Under the pieces are notes generated by a model, which saw nothing but the letters and a program-made list of their open reading frames with translations, ran no database searches and was not told the DNA's origin. The position numbers were made by a program, and so were the translations under genes. From positions 1 through 34,872 of the forward strand of contig JAFZVU010000086.1 of NCBI GenBank assembly GCA_017617655.1: a stretch of 34,872 nucleotides of DNA, read 5' to 3'. Source of the stretch: Bacteroidales bacterium. GTDB lineage: Bacteria > Bacteroidota > Bacteroidia > Bacteroidales > UBA932. Positions 3,320 through 26,646 of this stretch are shown here, piece by piece (positions within the stretch are counted from its first letter, which is position 1; each line of letters starts with the position of its first letter).

Positions 3320-4360
3320 ATGAAAAGTTTTTTCGAGAAAGATGCCGTAGAACTTACTCCCGACGGGAAGGAACTTGTCATACTCGACCAGACGCTGCTG
3401 CCTAACCAGGAGAAATACATCACCATAACCACTGCCGAGCAGCTTTTCTATGCCATCACGCTGCTGAAAGTGCGCGGTTCGCATGCCATCGGCATCTCCG
3501 CCGCCCTAGGTCTTGCAATGTGCATGAACCGCTTCGAGACCAACGACCTGAGGGTGTTCGAGAGCGAGTTCCTGAGGGTGAAGCGCTATCTGGCCATAAG
3601 CCGTCCGTCGGCTGTCGACCTCTTTACCGACCTGAACCGGATGGAGAGTTGTTTCTACGAGCAGATGAGCTGTGCTGAGGACGGCGCCGGAGCGATCTCT
3701 CTGATAAAGGAGCGCCTTACTGCCGAGGCCCGCAACATCAAGCTCGAGAAGATCCGCACATGCCTGGCGATAGCGGAGTACGGTTTCAGCCTGCTGAAGC
3801 CGGGAGTGACCATCATGACATACTGCAATGCCGGCTATCTGGCGGTTTCCCGCTACGGAACTGCGCTCAGCCCCATATTCCTGGCCCAGGAGAACGGCTA
3901 CATGCCGAAGGTATATGCCTGCGAGACCAGACCCCTCCTCCAGGGAGCCCGTCTGACATCCTACGAACTTGGCAAGGCGGGGGTTGACGTGACTCTGATC
4001 TGCGACAACATGGCTTCGATAGTCATGAGCCGCAAGAAGGTCGATATTATCTTCGTGGGCGCCGACACCGTGGCCGCCAACGGCGACGTTATCAACAAGG
4101 TGGGCACCAGCGGCCTGGCTATACTGGCGCAGCACTACGGAGTGCCGTTCTACGTACTTTGCCCGTCGCAGACCATCGACAAGGACCGTCCCACCGGATA
4201 TGACGTCAAGATAGAGGAGAGGCCCGGCTACGAGGTCACAGAGATGTATTATGAAAAACCCTCCGCACCTGTCGGCACCAAGGTATACAATCCGGCCTTC
4301 GACGTCACTCCGAACGCACTCATTACCGGTATCATAACAGAAAACGGTATTTCTAAATGA
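3320..4360 (+). CDS. mtnA: S-methyl-5-thioribose-1-phosphate isomerase family protein
   Basis: 346 residues, the usual MtnA length. The family isomerises methylthioribose-1-phosphate to methylthioribulose-1-phosphate in methionine salvage. The catalytic cysteine is seen at Cys169 in MTYCNAG, and the catalytic aspartate at Asp249 in GADTVAANGDVINKVGT. ETRPLLQGARLT and NPAFDVTPNALITGIITENG are also typical. One oddity is the phosphate-site loop near residues 52-58, which reads RGSHAIG where the family almost always has RGAPAIG; substrate preference could therefore differ. It is the first gene of a four-gene overlapping operon, and its stop overlaps the next start (ATGA). No other methionine-salvage kinase or dehydratase is in the window. 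A related aldose-phosphate isomerase activity is possible. Confidence 0.85.
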   Translation: MKSFFEKDAVELTPDGKELVILDQTLLPNQEKYITITTAEQLFYAITLLKVRGSHAIGISAALGLAMCMNRFETNDLRVFESEFLRVKRYLAISRPSAVDLFTDLNRMESCFYEQMSCAEDGAGAISLIKERLTAEARNIKLEKIRTCLAIAEYGFSLLKPGVTIMTYCNAGYLAVSRYGTALSPIFLAQENGYMPKVYACETRPLLQGARLTSYELGKAGVDVTLICDNMASIVMSRKKVDIIFVGADTVAANGDVINKVGTSGLAILAQHYGVPFYVLCPSQTIDKDRPTGYDVKIEERPGYEVTEMYYEKPSAPVGTKVYNPAFDVTPNALITGIITENGISK

Positions 4361-19010: not shown

Positions 19011-19024
19011 GTAAATTGCAACTT

Positions 19025-20287
19025 ATGAACGAAATCCTACTGAAGAACGTATATGCACGCGGCAAGAGATGCGACATCCTTGTCCTTGGCAACATCATAT
19101 CGAAGATTGCAGATTCAATAGATGCTCCTGCAGCTGAAGTTATAGACTGCAGCCGCATGGCCGCCATTCCCGGCTTCATCAACATGCATACCCATGCCGC
19201 CATGACCATGACGCGCAGCGCCAAGGAAGACACTCCGCTCATGCCCTGGCTCCAGCATATATGGAAGATAGAGGCCCAGATAGACGAAGAAATCCTCTAC
19301 TGGGGCAACAAGCTGGCCTGCCTTGAGATGATAAAGACGGGCACCACCTGTTACAATGACATGTACTGGGGTGTCGGCATTGCCGCCAGGGCCTGCGATG
19401 AGATGGGTATCCGCGGAGTCCATTCGTACTGCATGCTCGACAACGGCGACATGGTCAAGGCTGAGAAGGAGCGCAGGGCCCTCGTCCGGGCATGGGAAGA
19501 GTCTCAGTCGTTCTCTTCGCTCAACATCTTTTCCGTGTCGGTGCATGCGCCGTACACCGTATGCGAACAGAACATGCGCTGGGCGAACGAATTCGCCCGC
19601 GAACACGACTTGCTCCTGCACATCCACCTGAGCGAGACTGAGCAGGAAATAATTGATTCACAGAACAAATGGGGCTGCTCACCGGTGGAATACTGCGAGC
19701 GCCTGGGCATGCTCAGCGATCGTATGATCGCCGCCCACAGCCTCTGGCTGAGCCCTCATGACATAGAGCTGATGGGAAAATACGGTGTTACGGCCGTGCA
19801 CAACGTCAACAGCAACCTGAAGATTTCCAGCGGCTACAAGTTCCCGATGGAAGAGCTCATCGCGGCCGGTGCCAACGTCACTCTGGGCACCGACGGCTGC
19901 GGCAGCTCCAATAATCTCGACATGCTCGAAGCCCTCAAGACAGCCGCGCTGCTGCAGAAGGCATGGCGCAAGAATCCTGCTGCAATTCCTCTTGATACCC
20001 TGCTTAAGATTGGCTCCGAGAATGCGGCTAAGGCAATAGGTCTCAATGCCGGAAAGATAGAGGAGGGCAAGCTGGCCGACATAGTGCTCATCGACATGAA
20101 CAACGTATGGTTCACACCCAATTACGATTTCGAGGCCAACCTGGTGTATTCCGCCAACAGTTCGTGCGTAGACACCGTGATCTGCGACGGACGCATAGTC
20201 ATGCGTGGCCGCAAGGTCGAGGGAGAACAGGAAATCCTCGACAATGCAGCCGCCTGTGGAGAACGTCTGATGTCGAGGATCCTCTAA
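19025..20287 (+). CDS. mtaD: 5-methylthioadenosine/S-adenosylhomocysteine deaminase (amidohydrolase family)
   Basis: 420-residue metal-dependent deaminase converting SAH to S-inosylhomocysteine, or MTA to its inosine analogue. Metal and substrate motifs: GFINMHTHAAM (His55, His57), HIHLSETEQE, AAHSLWLSPHDIELM and LGTDGCGSSNNLDML with its metal aspartate. The C-terminal composite domain (GKIEEGKLADIVLIDM) is typical. I chose the ATG at 19025, 14 bases after rluD; a TTG three codons upstream is less likely. Family members also include guanine or other heterocycle deaminases, but the SNNLDM segment favours MTA/SAH. It ends 18 bases from the convergent reductase gene, with no convincing terminator. 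Confidence 0.85.
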   Translation: MNEILLKNVYARGKRCDILVLGNIISKIADSIDAPAAEVIDCSRMAAIPGFINMHTHAAMTMTRSAKEDTPLMPWLQHIWKIEAQIDEEILYWGNKLACLEMIKTGTTCYNDMYWGVGIAARACDEMGIRGVHSYCMLDNGDMVKAEKERRALVRAWEESQSFSSLNIFSVSVHAPYTVCEQNMRWANEFAREHDLLLHIHLSETEQEIIDSQNKWGCSPVEYCERLGMLSDRMIAAHSLWLSPHDIELMGKYGVTAVHNVNSNLKISSGYKFPMEELIAAGANVTLGTDGCGSSNNLDMLEALKTAALLQKAWRKNPAAIPLDTLLKIGSENAAKAIGLNAGKIEEGKLADIVLIDMNNVWFTPNYDFEANLVYSANSSCVDTVICDGRIVMRGRKVEGEQEILDNAAACGERLMSRIL

Positions 20288-20305: not shown

Positions 20306-21106
20306 TTACATTGGTTCTATCTTCCTGCTGAGCTTCGCGCAGAGGCCCGGGAAGAAGCGTTTTATGTAGACCATCAGCAGTTCCTTGCGGCCTACGAGCA
20401 CCTCTCTCTTGCGTTTGAGGATAGCCTTGCAGATCTTTTCGCCGGCCTTTTCGGCGGTCAGGCCGGAGGCCTGTCCGGCGTCAAGCTTGCCGTGCTGCTT
20501 GCCGCCCTTCTCGAGGGCGAAGAAAGAGATGTTGGTCTGCACTCGGCCGGGACACACTATAGTTACACGGATTCCCTGGTCGTAATATTCAGCAGCCAGA
20601 GTCTCGAAGAAGCCGTAGAGGGCGTGCTTCGAAGAACTGTAGGTGCAGCGCAGCGGGAAGCCGAAGCGTCCGTTGATGCTGGTGGTTACTGCTATCTGCC
20701 CGCGGATGCCGTCCTTCGGCTCCCTTGCCAGCATCCTCGGAAGGATTTCCTTGGCCAGCAGGACAGGGGAGAAGAAGTTAAGCTCCATGATCTTGCGGAT
20801 CATAGGCTCGTCTGTATCTATCACGTTGGTCCTCTGGCTTATGCCTGCATTGCAGTAGAGGACGTCGACGCCGCCGTCGATGGCGTTCCACGCCTCTTCT
20901 GCCAGGCTGGGAATATCCTTGGTTTCCAGAAGGTTGAAAGGCAGGGTCCTCACCTCGGGAGCACCTTTCTTGCGGCATTCTTCCGCGGTGGTGTAGAGCT
21001 CCGGGGCTTCGAGGGCAGTGAGGATAACGTTGTGCCCCCTGGAAGCGAAACTGTATGCCGTAGCCTGTCCTATGCCGGACGAGGCTCCTGTAATCCAGAC
21101 ATTCAT
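20306..21106 (-). CDS. Short-chain dehydrogenase, candidate 3-keto-sulfonolipid (3-ketocapnine) reductase
   Basis: 266-residue classical SDR. The cofactor motif is TGASSGIG at residues 6-13, NAG is at 86-88, the catalytic serine is probably in TTSINGRFG, and YSSSK is at 156-160 (Tyr156, Lys160). CPGRVQTNIS follows. The C-terminal region after residue 230 is basic and hydrophobic (MVYIKRFFPGLCAKL), fitting membrane association, as in DHRS7-like and 3-ketosphinganine reductases. It is the last gene of the four-gene minus-strand operon and its start overlaps the upstream stop by 4 bases. By context it would reduce the 3-keto product of the acyl-condensing enzyme. The assignment is inference; the SDR fold itself is certain. 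Confidence 0.8.
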   Translation of the reverse strand: MNVWITGASSGIGQATAYSFASRGHNVILTALEAPELYTTAEECRKKGAPEVRTLPFNLLETKDIPSLAEEAWNAIDGGVDVLYCNAGISQRTNVIDTDEPMIRKIMELNFFSPVLLAKEILPRMLAREPKDGIRGQIAVTTSINGRFGFPLRCTYSSSKHALYGFFETLAAEYYDQGIRVTIVCPGRVQTNISFFALEKGGKQHGKLDAGQASGLTAEKAGEKICKAILKRKREVLVGRKELLMVYIKRFFPGLCAKLSRKIEPM

Positions 21107-22326
21107 GCCAGCTCCTCCACTTCACGGGCGAACCACCTGGCCCTTTCGCTGCCTTCGCCTATGTTAAGCAGGATAGTTTCACCCTGGTGGATCATGTTCT
21201 CTTCGAGAGCCTTGAAGAAGCCTGCGAAGCAGACCATCGAAGCCGGGCCGAATATGACACCGGTCTTGCTCTGTATCTCCTTTGCCAGAGCAGCCAGGTC
21301 AGATTCTACTACTCTGACGAAACCGCCCTTGGTCTCTTTCACCATCGGGGCAACTGTCGGGTACATGCCCGGAGTGCCTGCCGACAGGATGGAGATCCTG
21401 GTCTGCGGGATAACGGTGGGGAAGTCCTTCTCCCAGCCTTTGGGGAAATGCTCTGCAGTGGCTTTCTCCCACGCGCGGACCATAGGGTCGCAGGTGTCCT
21501 GTTGCGCGAGGATAAGACGCGGCATCTTTATGTTCTTGTCGTAGTATTTCTGAAGCTCGCGAACACCTTTGTCAAGGGCGATGGGGCCTGTGCCGCCGGC
21601 TACGGCCTGGAAGAACACGTCCGGCATCTTGCCCAGCTGGCGCAGGAACTCGAAGGCCATGGTGCGCTTAGCCTCTACGCGGATGGGGTCGATGTTGCCG
21701 GCTGATATGAGCACATTCTCGCTTACATGGAAGTCTGCGGCCTCTTTCTTGGCAGCACCGTATCCACCCTGGGAGATGTGAAGCACCTGTCCGTGAGAGC
21801 GGATGGTGTCGGCGGTGTCCTTGCACACGTCGTTAGGCATGAACACGTCGAAGGTTACGCCGGCCAGAGCACAATAACGGCTGAACGCAGTGGCTGCATT
21901 GCCGGTAGAGGCGAGGCAGAAGCGCTTTACACCCTTCTCCTTGAAGATAGAGCCGCCGAGGGCTGCAGCGATGTCCTTGAAGGTGCCGCTGCCGCCGTTA
22001 AGGTCGTTGCGCACTACGTATACCTTGCAGTCTACGCAGTGTCTCTCCTTTGCGTATTCCTCCAGGAAGCCCCACTCTTCGATGGGCTCGGCGCCCTCGC
22101 CGCATGACACTATGTTGTCGCGGCTTTCCAGCGGGAGGAAGTCGAAGTAGCGGAAGAGGCTGTCCTGCCCGTCGCCGCCTTCGAACAACTTGCTGTAGTC
22201 GGCGTCGTAAACGGCTTCAGCCTTCTGGCAGCCGCAGCTGCATTTCTGGTCGTGTGCGAACCAGTCTGCGAAGTCGCCGCAGTCGGCGCCGCAGGCCGTG
22301 CATATCAGTTTGTATTTCTTGCTCAT
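21103..22326 (-). CDS. Threonine-synthase-like PLP enzyme, candidate cysteate synthase
   Basis: 407 residues of fold-type II PLP enzyme. The N-terminus is a zinc-ribbon-like segment (Cys9, Cys12, then Cys29, Cys31, Cys33). The PLP lysine is Lys117 in NGGSGTFKDIAA, STGNAATAF contacts substrate, and AVAGGTGPIALDKG is the glycine-rich phosphate loop. Automated annotation would probably say threonine synthase. Methanogen cysteate synthase, which makes L-cysteate from phosphoserine and sulfite, is a known paralogue of this fold with similar length. The gene lies 1 base after an alpha-oxoamine synthase and overlaps a reductase, with no homoserine or threonine genes nearby. A role supplying cysteate for sulfonolipid is therefore favoured. 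Distinguishing it from true threonine synthase needs active-site comparison. Confidence 0.75.
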   Translation of the reverse strand: MSKKYKLICTACGADCGDFADWFAHDQKCSCGCQKAEAVYDADYSKLFEGGDGQDSLFRYFDFLPLESRDNIVSCGEGAEPIEEWGFLEEYAKERHCVDCKVYVVRNDLNGGSGTFKDIAAALGGSIFKEKGVKRFCLASTGNAATAFSRYCALAGVTFDVFMPNDVCKDTADTIRSHGQVLHISQGGYGAAKKEAADFHVSENVLISAGNIDPIRVEAKRTMAFEFLRQLGKMPDVFFQAVAGGTGPIALDKGVRELQKYYDKNIKMPRLILAQQDTCDPMVRAWEKATAEHFPKGWEKDFPTVIPQTRISILSAGTPGMYPTVAPMVKETKGGFVRVVESDLAALAKEIQSKTGVIFGPASMVCFAGFFKALEENMIHQGETILLNIGEGSERARWFAREVEELA

Positions 22327-22327
22327 G

Positions 22328-23599
22328 TTATTTCTTCTTCAGAAGAGTTGAAAGGTCGGGGGCGGCGTGGTCGTAGAAACCTTTGGCCAGATTTTCCTTG
22401 ATCTCCTTGAATGCGTTGAGTGTGTAGTCGACATCTTCGATGCTGTGGGCAGCGGTGGGGATGATGCGGAAGATTATCATGCCCTTCGGGATGACAGGGT
22501 AGATTACCACTGAGCAGAAGATGTGGTATCTCTCGCGCAGGTCGACAGCCATGTTCATGGCCTGATACTCGCCTCCGAAGATCCTGACGGGAGTGACGCA
22601 TGCCTCTGCAGGGCCGATTTCGAAGCCCATGTCGCGGAAACCGTTCTGCAGGCGGCGGGTAACCGTCCACAGTTTCTTGCGCAGCTCGTCACCCTCGGCG
22701 GAGCGGATGATCTCAAGACGCTTCAGACAGCCCTCTACGATAGGCATAGGGAGCGACTTGGCGTATATCTGAGAACGCATGTTGTATTTCAAAAAGTCGA
22801 TGATAGGCTTCTCGCTGGCTACGAAACCGCCTATGACGGCCATAGACTTGGCGTATGCGCCGATGTAGATGTCGACTTCGTCCATGACGCCGAAATGCTC
22901 GCTTGTACCACGGCCGGTGGGGCCCATCACGCCGAATCCGTGAGCGTCGTCGATCAGGATGCGGAATTTGTATTTCTTCTTGAGGGCGCAGATCTGGTCG
23001 AGGATGCCGAGGGCTCCGGTCATTCCGTATACACCTTCGGTGATAAGGAGGACTCCGCCGCCCTGCTCTTCGGCGAGCTGGGTGGCGACTTTGAGCTTCT
23101 GCTCGCAGCTTACGATGTCGTTATGCTTGTATGAGAATGCCTTTCCGGTGTGGAGACGTTTTCCGTCGAGCAGGCAGGCGTGCGCCTCTGCATCGAATAC
23201 TATCACATCATGACGGCTCACGAGGGAGTCGATGGTAGATACGATGCCCTGGTAACCGAAGTTGAACTCGAAAGCAGCTTCCTTGTGTTCGAAATCTGCC
23301 AGTTCGCGCTCCAGACGCTCGTGGAGGTCTGAGTTGCCGGTGAGCATGCGGCTGCCCATGGGATATGCCATGCCCCATCTTGCTGCGGCTTCTGCGTCAA
23401 TCTTGCGGACTTCAGGATGGTTTGCCAGGCCCAGATAGTTGTTGAGGCTCCAGCAAAGCACTTCTTCGCCGTTGAAACGCATGTGCGGACCGATTTCACC
23501 TTCGAGCTTGGGGAATGCGTAATAACCTTCAGCCTGGTCTCTCCACTGGCCTATGGGGCCGCCGGTCGACTCTTTGATTCTGTCGAATATGTCTTTCAT
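22328..23599 (-). CDS. Alpha-oxoamine synthase, candidate cysteate fatty-acyl transferase of sulfonolipid synthesis
   Basis: 423-residue fold-type I PLP enzyme of the KAPA synthase / serine palmitoyltransferase family. Visible: SLNNYLGLANHPEV (50-65), GSRMLTGNSDLHERLE (82-97), the FDAEAHACLLDG segment with the PLP-stacking histidine, DDAHGFGVMG with Asp218, and the PLP lysine Lys251 in GAYAKSMAVIGG. The extended N-terminus (GPIGQWRDQAEGYYAFPKLEGE) and C-terminal PVIPKGMIIFRIIPTAAHSIEDVD resemble, from memory, the Bacteroidota group including the capnine-forming enzyme of Flavobacterium and SulA of Alistipes. Those condense cysteate with a long-chain acyl thioester to give 3-ketocapnine. Serine palmitoyltransferase or glycine acetyltransferase are the alternatives; the neighbouring cysteate-synthase-like gene decides the call. 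It overlaps the VOC gene by 4 bases. Confidence 0.8.
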   Translation of the reverse strand: MKDIFDRIKESTGGPIGQWRDQAEGYYAFPKLEGEIGPHMRFNGEEVLCWSLNNYLGLANHPEVRKIDAEAAARWGMAYPMGSRMLTGNSDLHERLERELADFEHKEAAFEFNFGYQGIVSTIDSLVSRHDVIVFDAEAHACLLDGKRLHTGKAFSYKHNDIVSCEQKLKVATQLAEEQGGGVLLITEGVYGMTGALGILDQICALKKKYKFRILIDDAHGFGVMGPTGRGTSEHFGVMDEVDIYIGAYAKSMAVIGGFVASEKPIIDFLKYNMRSQIYAKSLPMPIVEGCLKRLEIIRSAEGDELRKKLWTVTRRLQNGFRDMGFEIGPAEACVTPVRIFGGEYQAMNMAVDLRERYHIFCSVVIYPVIPKGMIIFRIIPTAAHSIEDVDYTLNAFKEIKENLAKGFYDHAAPDLSTLLKKK

Positions 23600-24672
23600 T
23601 TCTTTAAGGTTTTGATTTTTGTGAGCCCCATGAGCCGGAAGAGGAATTTTGGCAGAGGCTTCAGGGGGTTGCGTTTAGTCATGTCTATGTATATGCCGAG
23701 CTTCTTGAGCACGGGAATCTTCTGGGTTTCTACGAATTCGATGAGGGTGCCGTCGGGGTCTTCGATATATGTGAAGTGGCCGGATGCCGCACCCATGTCG
23801 AAACGTTCGTCGTTGGGGCAGCTGTCTACGGTGAAGGGGTGTCCCTTCTCGGCGCAGAATTCACCGAGAGCCCTCATGCCGGACACGTCGAAGCAGACCT
23901 GGATGAAGCCGGGGTCGCCCCAGTAGCGGCCTTCGTAGATCTTGCGGGGAGTGCGGTCGAGCGGCTGCACGAGCTCTATGTAGCTCTTGCCGAACAGTTC
24001 GCTGAATGCGCCTTTCGGACGTTTCAGGGGGGCCAGCAGGACTCTGCGGAAACGGCCTTCGCTGCAGGGCATCATGCTCCAGTCGTCGAAGGTGCCTTCC
24101 TCGTTGAATACCATTCTCTCGTATCCGAGCACCTCTGAGTAGAAGTTGATGGCAGCGTGCATGTCGGTAACGCCGATCACGGCTCCGCATACGCCGCCGT
24201 TGTTGCGCCCCTGGTTGATGAATACGTCACTGCCGGAAGCAACCTGGAAATAGTTGCCCCAGGGGTCTTTGATCCAGAATGTGGGACGCCCGTCAGGGGT
24301 TTTGGAAAGCGGACCTACGTTTACGTTCTGTGCGCTCAGTTCGCGGTGGAAGGCGGGAACGTTGTTGCTGCGTATCTTCACAGCAAAGATGCCGGTGTCT
24401 CCGGCAGAAATGTCGAACGCCGCCGGGCAGGGCTTGCGCTCAGAATACTGCCAGATTTCAAAACCGCTGCCACCCTGGAGGTTGACAGCGATGCAAGCGT
24501 GACGCTTCTGAGGCTGGCCGCCGGTATAGGGCAGCATCCTTTCAGCTACTGTGTCGTCTTCGAGAATACGGATGTTGGCGCCGAAGTGGTCGATGTACCA
24601 TTGCCAGCTTTCGTAGAAATTTTCGCAACCTACGCCGACCTGCTGGATTCCGCCGATGTTGAAATTTGCCAT
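23596..24672 (-). CDS. Two-module VOC-superfamily protein, first gene of the sulfonolipid-type operon
   Basis: 358 residues made of two vicinal-oxygen-chelate modules (about 1-150 and 160-320). Module 2 is the clearest: VIGVTDMHAAINFYSEVLGYE and YIEDPDGTLIEFVE. Module 1 has VGVGCENFYESWQWYIDHFG and WIKDPWGNYFQV. A basic C-terminal tail (KRNPLKPLPKFLFRLMGLTKIKTLKK) looks like a peripheral membrane anchor. By eye, several positions that carry metal His/Glu in glyoxalase-type enzymes hold Gln or other residues, so enzymatic activity is uncertain. Family roles include glyoxalase, dioxygenase, epimerase and ligand binding. It is the promoter-proximal gene and overlaps the acyltransferase start by 4 bases, implying a function in the same pathway. 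No specific reaction can be assigned. Confidence 0.75.
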   Translation of the reverse strand: MANFNIGGIQQVGVGCENFYESWQWYIDHFGANIRILEDDTVAERMLPYTGGQPQKRHACIAVNLQGGSGFEIWQYSERKPCPAAFDISAGDTGIFAVKIRSNNVPAFHRELSAQNVNVGPLSKTPDGRPTFWIKDPWGNYFQVASGSDVFINQGRNNGGVCGAVIGVTDMHAAINFYSEVLGYERMVFNEEGTFDDWSMMPCSEGRFRRVLLAPLKRPKGAFSELFGKSYIELVQPLDRTPRKIYEGRYWGDPGFIQVCFDVSGMRALGEFCAEKGHPFTVDSCPNDERFDMGAASGHFTYIEDPDGTLIEFVETQKIPVLKKLGIYIDMTKRNPLKPLPKFLFRLMGLTKIKTLKK

Positions 24673-24753: not shown

Positions 24754-24800
24754 CGTTGTAAGCTTTTTGAATTTTTATGTAAAAATATGGTTTTACAACG
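24754..24800. repeat. Inverted TTGTAA sites, 8-bp arms
   Basis: CGTTGTAA at 24754-24761 and its exact reverse complement TTACAACG at 24793-24800, separated by 31 bases. The core TTGTAA recurs at 24816 and, inverted, at 24847. Confidence 0.55.
24771..24786. repeat. 16-bp AT-rich palindrome
   Basis: ATTTTTA-TG-TAAAAAT, perfect 7-base arms, nested between the two CGTTGTAA sites. Its low complexity makes chance occurrence more likely than for the others. Confidence 0.4.
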
Positions 24801-24810
24801 CAGAAAAAGG

Positions 24811-24818
24811 TAAATTTG
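24811..24818 (+). promoter_or_regulatory. -7 promoter element of the AraC-type regulator operon
   Basis: TAAATTTG, an exact TAnnTTTG match, 23 bases before the chosen ATG at 24842. There is no good -33 TTTG, which fits a promoter needing an activator. The TTGTAAGAC repeat overlaps its last three bases. Confidence 0.6.
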
Positions 24819-24852
24819 TAAGACGTAACAGCAATCCGGAAATGTCTTACAA
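24816..24852. repeat. 9-bp inverted repeat flanking the regulator start codon
   Basis: TTGTAAGAC at 24816-24824 and GTCTTACAA at 24844-24852, perfect complements 19 bases apart. The left arm overlaps the -7 box and the right arm overlaps the ATG and first codons. Likely an autoregulatory site; if the whole left arm were transcribed it would instead form a hairpin hiding the start codon. Confidence 0.6.
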
Positions 24853-25453
24853 GTGGCACAATTTCGTGTACGTCGTGCTTATTGCAGCAGCGTTGACATT
24901 AGTCGGCCTCTGTCCTTCATGGGTCTTGACCAATGCTCTTGTCATATTCTTCGCCGGCGTCGCAGGAGTGTTCGCGTTTCTCTATTTCGACGAGCGCCGC
25001 AGCCTGAGGAATCTGTTGTCCAAGAGCGCACAAACCCAGACCATCCCCGAGCTTCTCCATTACGGATATGATTTCGACAGGGCGATGGTGCGCGACGATG
25101 CCGATGTCAAGCTTCTGGCCACCCTGCGCGAACTGTTCGAGACACGGGAAGTCTATCTCGACAAGAGCCTCACGATAGACTCTCTGGCAAAGATGGCTTC
25201 CACCAACAAGGCACGCATGTCTCGTTTCATCAACGAGGTTTTCGGCTGCAATTTTCCTACGTTCCTCAATAACTATCGTGTTACAAAGGCTGTGGAGCTG
25301 CTCAGCGACCCCGCAAGCGACATATTTACCGTTGAAGCAATAGGCGAGAACTGCGGCTTCAACAACCGCCAGGCCTTCCATTCCTCGTTCAAGAAGCGCA
25401 TCGGGATGCCTCCGAGCAAATTCCGTAAACTTATCAAGAAAGCAGAAAAATGA
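24842..25453 (+). CDS. Membrane-tethered AraC-family transcription regulator
   Basis: 203 residues. The N-terminal third holds two predicted membrane helices (about residues 8-25, FVYVVLIAAALTLVGLCP, and 29-48, LTNALVIFFAGVAGVFAFLY), with only a few residues between them. A charged linker follows, then a C-terminal AraC-type double helix-turn-helix (about 110-203). The latter shows LTIDSLAKMASTNKARMSRFINEVFG and the second-helix signature AIGENCGFNNRQAFHSSFKKRIGMPPSKFR. There is no sugar-binding or periplasmic sensor domain, so any signal is likely to come from the membrane or from lipid. I chose the ATG at 24842; the longer TTG reading starts upstream of the promoter. It is divergent from the sulfonolipid-type operon and overlaps the following glycosyltransferase gene by 4 bases. 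Confidence 0.85.
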   Translation: MSYKWHNFVYVVLIAAALTLVGLCPSWVLTNALVIFFAGVAGVFAFLYFDERRSLRNLLSKSAQTQTIPELLHYGYDFDRAMVRDDADVKLLATLRELFETREVYLDKSLTIDSLAKMASTNKARMSRFINEVFGCNFPTFLNNYRVTKAVELLSDPASDIFTVEAIGENCGFNNRQAFHSSFKKRIGMPPSKFRKLIKKAEK

Positions 25454-26646
25454 GAATAGGTCTTTTCACAGACGCTTTTTATCCTATGGTCGACGGTGTC
25501 ATCAAGGTTGTGGACAGCTATGCCCGCAGGCTTGTAGACAAATGCGAAGTCACCGTCTTCGCTCCCGGCTTCGGCAAGGAAGGGGTGGCTGACCTGCCTT
25601 ACCCTGTCGAGAAATGCCATACCCTCAATTTCAACAACTTCGACTACTCAGTGCCGATGCCCCACTTCGACCCGGCTTTCGAGGCCGCCCTCATACGCAG
25701 CAAGCTCGACCTGGTGCACATCCACTCGCCGTTCTCCATAGGACTGATAGGTCTTAACTACGCCCGCCTGCGCGACGTTCCGGTTGTAGCGACCATCCAC
25801 TCCCAGTACAAGCAGGATTTCGAAAGGTCGCTGAAGCTTCCTGCTACGGTGAATCTGGCCATGATGACCATAATGAGCATATTCAACGGCTGCGACGAGT
25901 GCTGGACTGTCAATGACGCAGTGCGCAAGCTTTACATCCACGAATATGCCCTAACGGCGCCTTGCAAGGTGAAACAGAACGCCACCGACCATGTGCCGGT
26001 TGCCGACCGCAAGGCTGCTGCCGCCGAAGTGAATGCCAAATATGGCCTGGACGAAGATGACCTTGTCCTGCTGTTCACCGGCCGCATTAACTTCATAAAG
26101 AACATTGATTTCATTGTCCGCTCCCTGCGTATCCTCAAGGACAAAGGGCTGCGCTTCAAGATGCTCTTCGTAGGTCAGGGGCAGGACGAGGAAAAGCTGA
26201 AAGCCCTTGTGACTGAGTTGGGGCTGAATGAAGAAGTGGTGATGTGCGGCCTGGTCAAGGAGAAATCCATGCTGGAGAAGATATACAGCCGCGCAAGGCT
26301 GTTCCTCTTCCCCTCGCTATACGACGCCAACTCCCTGGTGCAGATTGAGGCGGCCTGCCAGAGCACCCCGACTCTGTTCCTGCGCGGCGCCCGCACGGCT
26401 GGCAACGTCACCGAAGATGTCAACGGCTTCCTCTCGGACGCCGACGAGCACGCCTACGCCGACAAGATCATGCGTATCCTTTCAGACGATGCCTATTACC
26501 TCAAAGTGTCGGAAGGTGCTTTTCGCGACATCTACCGTACCTGGGACCAGGTGGTGGACGATGTTTTCGAGGAGTACAAGAGGCTTATAGCCACACATGA
26601 GAAAAAATCACTAATAGATAAAATAGACAGTATTATTCCATCATGA
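25450..26646 (+). CDS. GT4 family glycosyltransferase, diacylglycerol-glucosyltransferase-like
   Basis: 398 residues with two Rossmann halves (GT-B). The N-terminus MRIGLFTDAFYPMVDGVIKVV and VHIHSPFSIGLIGLNYARLRDVPVVATIHSQY resemble processive or single-addition lipid glucosyltransferases. The donor half starts at LVLLFTGRINFIKNIDFIVRSL. The usual E-X7-E donor motif appears as D-X7-E (YDANSLVQIEAACQ), a conservative change. It would add a sugar from a nucleotide donor to a membrane lipid at the cytoplasmic face. The acceptor could be diacylglycerol or, by context, a sulfonolipid; that is speculation. It overlaps both the upstream regulator and the downstream lipoprotein gene by 4 bases. Confidence 0.85.
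   Translation: MRIGLFTDAFYPMVDGVIKVVDSYARRLVDKCEVTVFAPGFGKEGVADLPYPVEKCHTLNFNNFDYSVPMPHFDPAFEAALIRSKLDLVHIHSPFSIGLIGLNYARLRDVPVVATIHSQYKQDFERSLKLPATVNLAMMTIMSIFNGCDECWTVNDAVRKLYIHEYALTAPCKVKQNATDHVPVADRKAAAAEVNAKYGLDEDDLVLLFTGRINFIKNIDFIVRSLRILKDKGLRFKMLFVGQGQDEEKLKALVTELGLNEEVVMCGLVKEKSMLEKIYSRARLFLFPSLYDANSLVQIEAACQSTPTLFLRGARTAGNVTEDVNGFLSDADEHAYADKIMRILSDDAYYLKVSEGAFRDIYRTWDQVVDDVFEEYKRLIATHEKKSLIDKIDSIIPS

Follow-up and report, generated by a model that had tools for sequence, protein, structure and literature searches.

A minus-strand operon of a Bacteroidales bacterium that probably makes a sulfonolipid base, with a very likely third-lineage cysteate synthase and a VOC-fold companion

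The stretch of DNA analysed here, which we refer to as the window, is the 34,872-nucleotide contig JAFZVU010000086.1 of assembly GCA_017617655.1, a metagenome-assembled genome (MAG) of a Bacteroidales bacterium. It carries four minus-strand genes, read from position 24672 to 20306, that are predicted to encode a two-domain protein of the vicinal oxygen chelate (VOC) fold, a cysteate fatty-acyltransferase (CFAT), a threonine-synthase-like (TS-like) enzyme dependent on pyridoxal 5'-phosphate (PLP), and a short-chain dehydrogenase/reductase (SDR) that we denote SDR1 (Table 1). All four open reading frames were verified at these coordinates, and the gene junctions, taken in the order of transcription, are a 4-base overlap, a 1-base gap and a 4-base overlap. 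The first-pass annotation of the window had called a tight four-gene operon running in one direction, with the logic of capnine biosynthesis. The layout is as it described, the residues that it named (Lys251, Lys117 and Tyr156/Lys160) are in place, and its pathway interpretation is supported, although it described only three of the four genes and left out the one for the 358-aa VOC protein. We propose that the operon makes a capnine-type sulfonolipid long-chain base and that VOC and SDR1 serve the step after condensation, a reading to which we would give a probability of about 0.76.

Table 1. Predicted genes of the operon and the gene divergent from it (positions in the window)
Feature	Position	Strand	Basis
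Uncharacterised 358-aa protein with two VOC (glyoxalase-fold) domains; accompanies CFAT and SDR1	23596..24672	-	
423-aa CFAT/SulA/CapB-type cysteate fatty-acyltransferase (predicted), PLP Lys251, Lys281	22328..23599	-	PDB scores, residues
407-aa threonine-synthase-like PLP enzyme, proposed third-lineage cysteate synthase, Lys117	21103..22326	-	cut-offs, tree, co-occurrence, neighbours
266-aa SDR (SDR1), proposed 3-ketocapnine reductase with VOC	20306..21106	-	Pfam adh_short 149.9 bits; Tyr156/Lys160
Gene with AraC-type DNA-binding domain, divergent	24767..25453	+	HTH_18 58.1 bits

The Pfam matches of the operon proteins exceed the gathering cut-offs, and five near relatives have the same gene order, VOC-CFAT-TS-SDR (L002-L006, L and G numbers being our handles for loci and genomes; in L003 and L004 the VOC gene is cut by a contig end), so that the operon is more than a chance arrangement. 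In more distant relatives the same genes lie near one another in rearranged order. The closest relatives found, Bacteroidales MAGs recovered from the forestomach of water buffalo and yak, have versions of the 423-aa protein that are 97 to 92% identical to that of the window. The organism is a gut bacterium, probably of the rumen.

In the proposed route, the 407-aa PLP enzyme would supply cysteate, with O-phosphoserine and sulfite as its most likely substrates. The 423-aa CFAT would then condense cysteate with a fatty acyl thioester, with loss of CO2, to yield 3-ketocapnine, on which SDR1 together with VOC would act to give the 3-hydroxy base. In the genomes sampled, the VOC-SDR1 pair would replace, or at times supplement, a second SDR type (SDR2) found in other CFAT genomes.

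A sequence comparison with the PDB gives the 423-aa protein 567.8 bits to 7u7h (SulA of Alistipes finegoldii) and 566.6 bits to 28eh (CFAT), against 216 to serine palmitoyltransferase (SPT) and 197 to KBL; on scores alone it is clearly nearer, over its full length, to SulA than to SPT, KBL or BioF. Its PLP lysine, Lys251, lies in AYAKSM and bears the same number as Lys251 of SulA. In the accessible part of PMC9304779, Lys281 is given as the sole active-site difference from SPT, replacing an SPT alanine. This lysine is found in the window protein as well as in each of the 136 loci with a match of at least 45% identity (a count in which some loci repeat one gene and the window's own gene appears more than once), and two weaker rows (<45% identity) share it. 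By every feature that can be tested in a sequence, the 423-aa protein is a CFAT (SulA/CapB), as the first-pass annotation had it. The fold of an alpha-oxoamine synthase is shared with SPT, KBL and BioF, and the NCBIfam models for KBL and SPT score the protein at 293.9 and 279.8 bits, both below cut-off; an operon for sphingolipids, or one of the KBL/BioF type, is nevertheless highly improbable in view of the wide gap between the scores to SulA (568 bits) and SPT (216) and of a lysine in place of the alanine, and the sphingolipid operon was rejected on these grounds.

Some CFAT frames depart from this form. In three VOC genomes the frame is very long (1113-1171 codons): L236:2145-5576 and L243:9284-12610 are fusions of an acyl-AMP ligase, a phosphopantetheine carrier and CFAT that keep Lys281 and have VOC next door, and G339 (L231) has a CFAT frame of 1171 codons. 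A second CFAT-like copy in L337 (G098:C8), a paralogue about 45% identical, keeps both Lys251 and Lys281 and has N and D at the positions aligned to Asp217 and His220, where an alignment shift is possible.

The 407-aa PLP enzyme, whose Lys117 lies within GTFKDI, reaches none of the relevant NCBIfam cut-offs: it scores 156.6 bits to threonine synthase PRK08197 (cut-off 303), 62.6 to threonine synthase TIGR00260 (cut-off 167.1) and 118.7 to cysteate synthase TIGR03844 (cut-off 324.9). In a tree of 69 PLP enzymes, weakly rooted on one ThrC, the TS-like proteins cluster together (support 89) in a group that joins four solved threonine synthases (support 99), and 38 TIGR03844 proteins form a separate clade (support 100) with the window enzyme outside it. 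Membership in the methanogen-type cysteate synthases was rejected on the basis of this position and of the score. The loop that binds the PLP phosphate, GGTGP, is like the SGTGA of TIGR03844 and unlike the loop of the four solved threonine synthases, which reads GNAGN. The MAG also has a separate ThrC (277 bits, cut-off 167), so that the operon enzyme is not its sole threonine synthase copy; with both curated cut-offs missed as well, a housekeeping threonine synthase was rejected. An earlier proposal that cysteate arises here through a threonine-synthase paralogue is supported by the genomic context, but the enzyme stands outside the methanogen-type clade and belongs to a lineage of its own, closer to threonine synthase. 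According to the accessible text of a review (PMC10191378), Alistipes and Odoribacter use a homologue of the archaeal cysteate synthase and other bacteria use CapA, so the window enzyme would represent a third lineage. Together with the distribution and the neighbours described below, this makes it very likely that the 407-aa protein is a third-lineage cysteate synthase, neither of the archaeal type (TIGR03844) nor a threonine synthase.

The distribution of these genes was followed in an order sample (148 genomes, about 109 family labels) and a phylum sample (257 genomes), for both of which a completeness of at least 90% was requested; the window MAG, 84% complete, is counted in both. The E thresholds were chosen by us (SDR1 1e-42, SDR2 1e-50, CFAT 1e-90, TS-like 1e-40, VOC 1e-20), and all counts of neighbours are lower bounds, many of the fetched flanks ending at contig ends. 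Within the order sample 32 genomes have a TS-like gene, 39 have TIGR03844 (including G100, a partial match below cut-off that was retained) and none has both. The same exclusion holds among the 112 genomes with CFAT (30 TS-like, 37 TIGR03844, both 0; Fisher p 6e-7, kinship ignored) and at 80 CFAT loci, where a TS-like gene lies within 8 kb in 25, TIGR03844 in 9 and both in 0 (Fisher 0.05 on this set alone). The two types swap in sister operons: L019 reads VOC-CFAT-TS-SDR and L034 reads VOC-CFAT-SDR-TIGR03844. Even the window's own genus is mixed (13 genomes including the window's, 60-92% complete), with TIGR03844 above cut-off in two (G150, G157), a TS-like-level match in six and neither in five; VOC, SDR and TIGR03844 are consecutive in G157, in a row read without a CFAT search. 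Among distant TIGR03844 genomes, none of 20 fetched flanks contained CFAT, VOC, heterodisulfide-reductase-like (Hdr-like) or Cys genes and one contained SDR2; the TIGR03844 neighbourhoods of G003 and G005 had none of the queried pathway genes, and that of G008 had an Hdr-like set.

The neighbours of the TS-like genes point towards sulfite. In clade A of the tree (15 rows, support 61, the window protein being present twice, as window and as L278), the TS-like gene adjoins CFAT in 6/6 by coordinates. Across all 26 genomes of clade B, CFAT lies within the fetched flank in 8 and a sulfate-assimilation gene in 12. In six of these 12 the gene is a clear CysH or CysD, accompanied in some by CysN; in three the match is only a distant CysH-like protein (29-31%), and the other three have CysQ with or without a transporter. 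At L195, L211 and L219, CFAT is divergent to a row VOC-CysH-CysD-CysN-transporter-CysQ-TS-like, in which the transporter is a CitMHS/TrkA_C protein and to which L195 adds one extra SDR. Sulfate activation and reduction to sulfite beside a TS-like gene is strong context for a sulfite-using enzyme. That the enzyme is instead a threonine synthase, or acts on another phospho-amino acid while cysteate comes from elsewhere, is improbable: its best NCBIfam score (PRK08197, 156.6 bits) and best PDB matches are threonine synthases, with which the tree also groups it, but the separate ThrC, the GGTGP loop in place of GNAGN, the complete exclusion between TS-like and TIGR03844 and the sulfate-assimilation neighbours of the distant clade all speak against it. 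CysH together with CysD, CysN, CysQ or a transporter stands in one row with the TS-like gene at L195, L211, L219, L213 and L271, and it is possible that such rows encode a route from sulfate to cysteate. No sulfite reductase was found in the fully assigned L195 row, the rest of these genomes not having been searched for one.

The VOC fold is present in the 358-aa protein, and its gene is almost confined to CFAT genomes in the two samples. Of the 148 order genomes 52 have it at E <1e-92, all others being without a match at 1e-20, and CFAT is found in 50 of the 52 (the exceptions are G018 and G032). VOC occurs in 38 of 257 phylum genomes, and CFAT is present in 38/38 of these as against 55/219 of the rest; the pairing persists where CFAT is merely 45-50% identical. 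Near relatives of the window CFAT have VOC within 8 kb in 37 of 80 cases, or 32 of 75 when the five closest are excluded.

SDR1 has the motifs TGASSGIG (TGxxxGxG) and YxxxK, the latter with Tyr156 and Lys160 in TYSSSKH, and is likely, judged by these, to be a ketone reductase. It is found in 53 of the 148 order genomes, 49 of which belong to the 52 VOC genomes (p 1e-30). At CFAT loci with VOC near, SDR1 lies at most 4 kb from VOC in 37/37, and it is near in 5/43 of those without VOC near. SDR2 (L058:11261-12079) is found in 74 order genomes, 72 of them with CFAT, and adjoins CFAT by coordinates in two (G008, G091); the window MAG, 84% complete, has no match to it at E 1e-50. The 112 CFAT genomes divide into 31 with VOC only, 53 with SDR2 only, 19 with both and 9 with neither, so that VOC and SDR2 are anticorrelated (p 3e-7). 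Outside them, VOC or SDR2 occurs in only 4 of the 36 genomes without a CFAT match (G018, G032, G041, G089), and since all four carry a synthase gene, TS-like or TIGR03844, CFAT may be missing from their assemblies. The simplest reading of these numbers is that the step after condensation is carried out in one of two ways, by VOC with SDR1 or by SDR2.

Several observations weigh against this interpretation of the operon. The 407-aa enzyme fails to reach either curated cut-off, and threonine synthase is the family to which it scores closer; 45 of the 112 CFAT genomes have neither a TS-like gene nor TIGR03844; CapA may serve as the synthase in these. VOC is missing from 62 of the 112. Physical linkage is also loose outside the close relatives, with CFAT within 8 kb of VOC in just 8/51 order loci and 5/29 phylum loci (29 being the loci fetched with flanks out of 37 besides the window), and SDR1 within 1.5 kb of VOC in 25/51 and 4/29. 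All co-occurrence p values ignore kinship among genomes, and 23 of the 38 phylum VOC genomes come from one family, so that the p of 4e-20 for the pairing of VOC with CFAT in that sample is too small. Finally, VOC and SDR2 are found together in 19 of the 112 CFAT genomes, and the 11 CFAT loci (of 80) with SDR2 within 8 kb all have VOC near as well.

As the loci with SDR2 near CFAT all have VOC near, an added modification fits them as well as an alternative step. It is possible, if less probable than our proposal, that VOC and SDR1 further modify the capnine base, for example to another stereo- or regio-isomer, and that a different SDR performs the ordinary 3-keto reduction. At L058 a divergent VOC-SDR1 lies on one side and SDR2 on the other, the L198 row is SDR2-SDR1-VOC, VOC adjoins SDR2 at L215, and several active ketocapnine reductases per genome are reported in the accessible part of PMC11211663. 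Such a modification is harder to reconcile with the window genome, where SDR1 is inside the operon itself and SDR2 gave no match, and with the 31 CFAT genomes that have VOC without SDR2.

What VOC itself would do was considered from its residues. In an alignment of 80 of 86 dereplicated sequences (those with internal stops were removed beforehand), Gly163 and E233 are invariant (80/80 each), position 258 is H or Q in 80/80 (Gln in 17/80, window included) and E312 is kept in 79/80. We take these four positions to be the glyoxalase-type metal-ligand sites, of which the first is presumably His as a rule; in the sequence pattern, which carries no geometry, three of the four are kept and the first is Gly in all 80. 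The protein scores 22.2 bits to the NCBIfam lactoylglutathione lyase (cut-off 120); NCBIfam gave no curated match above cut-off, and a PDB sequence search gave none at E 0.001. The most likely job of VOC would be a metal-assisted proton transfer at C2 beside the ketone, of the glyoxalase I or methylmalonyl-CoA epimerase kind. This chemistry, read from a residue pattern alone, is the weakest link of our proposal, and its full form, in which VOC is a metal-dependent epimerase or isomerase of 3-ketocapnine that works with the SDR and is fed by a third, separately evolved cysteate synthase, is tentative and on balance doubtful.

It is unlikely that VOC has no catalytic part in the pathway and instead assists SDR1, as its partner or chaperone, or deals with a reactive by-product. 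Its near-constant pairing with SDR1 (49/52) and the glycine at the first ligand position, which leaves the site incomplete by the standard of glyoxalase I, would suit such a role; against it, the other three positions are kept in nearly all 80 sequences, and the change from H to Q retains a possible ligand. Extradiol dioxygenases of the VOC fold and HPPD have a 2-His-1-Glu iron site in the C-terminal domain. A dioxygenase role for the window protein was judged unlikely, since this triad is absent by sequence pattern (the first His is Gly in 80/80, and the second is Gln in 17/80 and in the window), and also in view of near relatives that are ruminant-forestomach MAGs.

A set of five Hdr-like genes also occurs beside these operons, comprising HdrC-, HdrB- and HdrA-like proteins, a small ferredoxin and a CCG protein, all below NCBIfam cut-offs. 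By coordinates the L221 row consists of CFAT, TS-like, the Hdr set, SDR and VOC, and the set lies in or near sulfonolipid rows also at L030, L040, L063, L073 and L177. The gene for its largest subunit lies close to CFAT at 15 of the 80 loci and is present in 51 of the 148 order genomes (E <1e-60), with CFAT in 50/51, or in 52/54 with the partial matches near 1e-31 of G032, G035 and G137 that the count of 51 leaves out. Among TS-like genomes the set is found in 6/6 of clade A and in 2/12 of those linked to sulfate assimilation; the window MAG carries it on another contig (G000:C29:1311-6230, L257). It may provide an alternative supply of sulfite or of electrons, and its distribution could merely reflect ancestry.

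Elsewhere in the window, the AraC-type gene, which has the identical divergent placement in L002 and L006, is a possible regulator, to judge by its domain. A GT4 glycosyltransferase gene (25450-26646) adjoins it, in the same place in L002 and L006; its best NCBIfam score is to alpha-monoglucosyldiacylglycerol synthase (76.6 bits, cut-off 400). A homocysteine S-methyltransferase, an IF-2B-family protein and an amidohydrolase (1366-2397, 3320-4360 and 19016-20287) are possibly a methylthioadenosine/methionine salvage set. No tRNA gene turned up in a scan of the window.

In its general form the pathway has been published before (PMC9304779, PMC11211663, PMC10191378), and roles of Bacteroidota sulfonolipids in host inflammation, gliding and choanoflagellate development are reported in PMC11211663 and PMC3463246. 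What looks new is the third lineage of cysteate synthase, the exchange between it and the archaeal type, and the tie of a VOC protein to this pathway: among the matches listed, in a literature search with subscription journals largely outside its coverage, no paper was found that links the VOC protein to sulfonolipids or describes this PLP lineage. One row that joins cysteate synthesis, condensation and the next step provides directly testable genes, and VOC is a promising candidate for a step of the pathway that has gone unrecognised. If VOC is indeed an epimerase or isomerase of 3-ketocapnine, nearly half of the CFAT genomes of the order (50/112 in the sample) would use a two-enzyme capnine route, perhaps with different stereochemistry. 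The operon genes could also sharpen genome-based prediction of sulfonolipid makers.

Among known systems, the two-domain VOC relatives (plant glyoxalase I, GLOD4 and 2,6-dichlorohydroquinone dioxygenase, which we take to be PcpA) are 11-14% identical to the window protein, which differs from them by Gly at one ligand position. CapA is presumably related to cystathionine beta-synthase, and the CapABC enzymes were reportedly the subject of a study by Liu et al. in 2022. The reaction proposed for the 407-aa enzyme is the same as that of CapA, the other published bacterial cysteate synthase (accessible text of PMC10191378), whereas by sequence its match to cysKM reaches 20.5 bits against a cut-off of 344 and that to threonine synthase is far stronger, the CapA sequence itself being outside this comparison. 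The 3-ketocapnine reductases CapC/KCR, in what is accessible of PMC11211663, share with SDR1 the SDR family and the catalytic Tyr-x-x-x-Lys, a likeness by motif with KCR sequences outside the comparison; SDR1 differs in being accompanied by VOC. With the archaeal-type synthase TIGR03844, of which the G157 protein is matched by PDB 9k3c at 462 bits, the window enzyme has in common PLP, the proposed reaction, sister operons and a (G/S)GTG loop, but the two belong to separate clades and the window enzyme scores far below the TIGR03844 cut-off. The closest counterpart of the condensing enzyme is SulA/CFAT/CapB of A. finegoldii (7u7h, 28eh; accessible part of PMC9304779), with a match over nearly the whole length, the same PLP lysine number and Lys281. 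The kcr genes of that species are described, in the accessible part of PMC11211663, as dispersed and lying apart from cfat and Cys, whereas the window CFAT gene is closely packed in one row with those of VOC, an SDR and what is probably a cysteate synthase.

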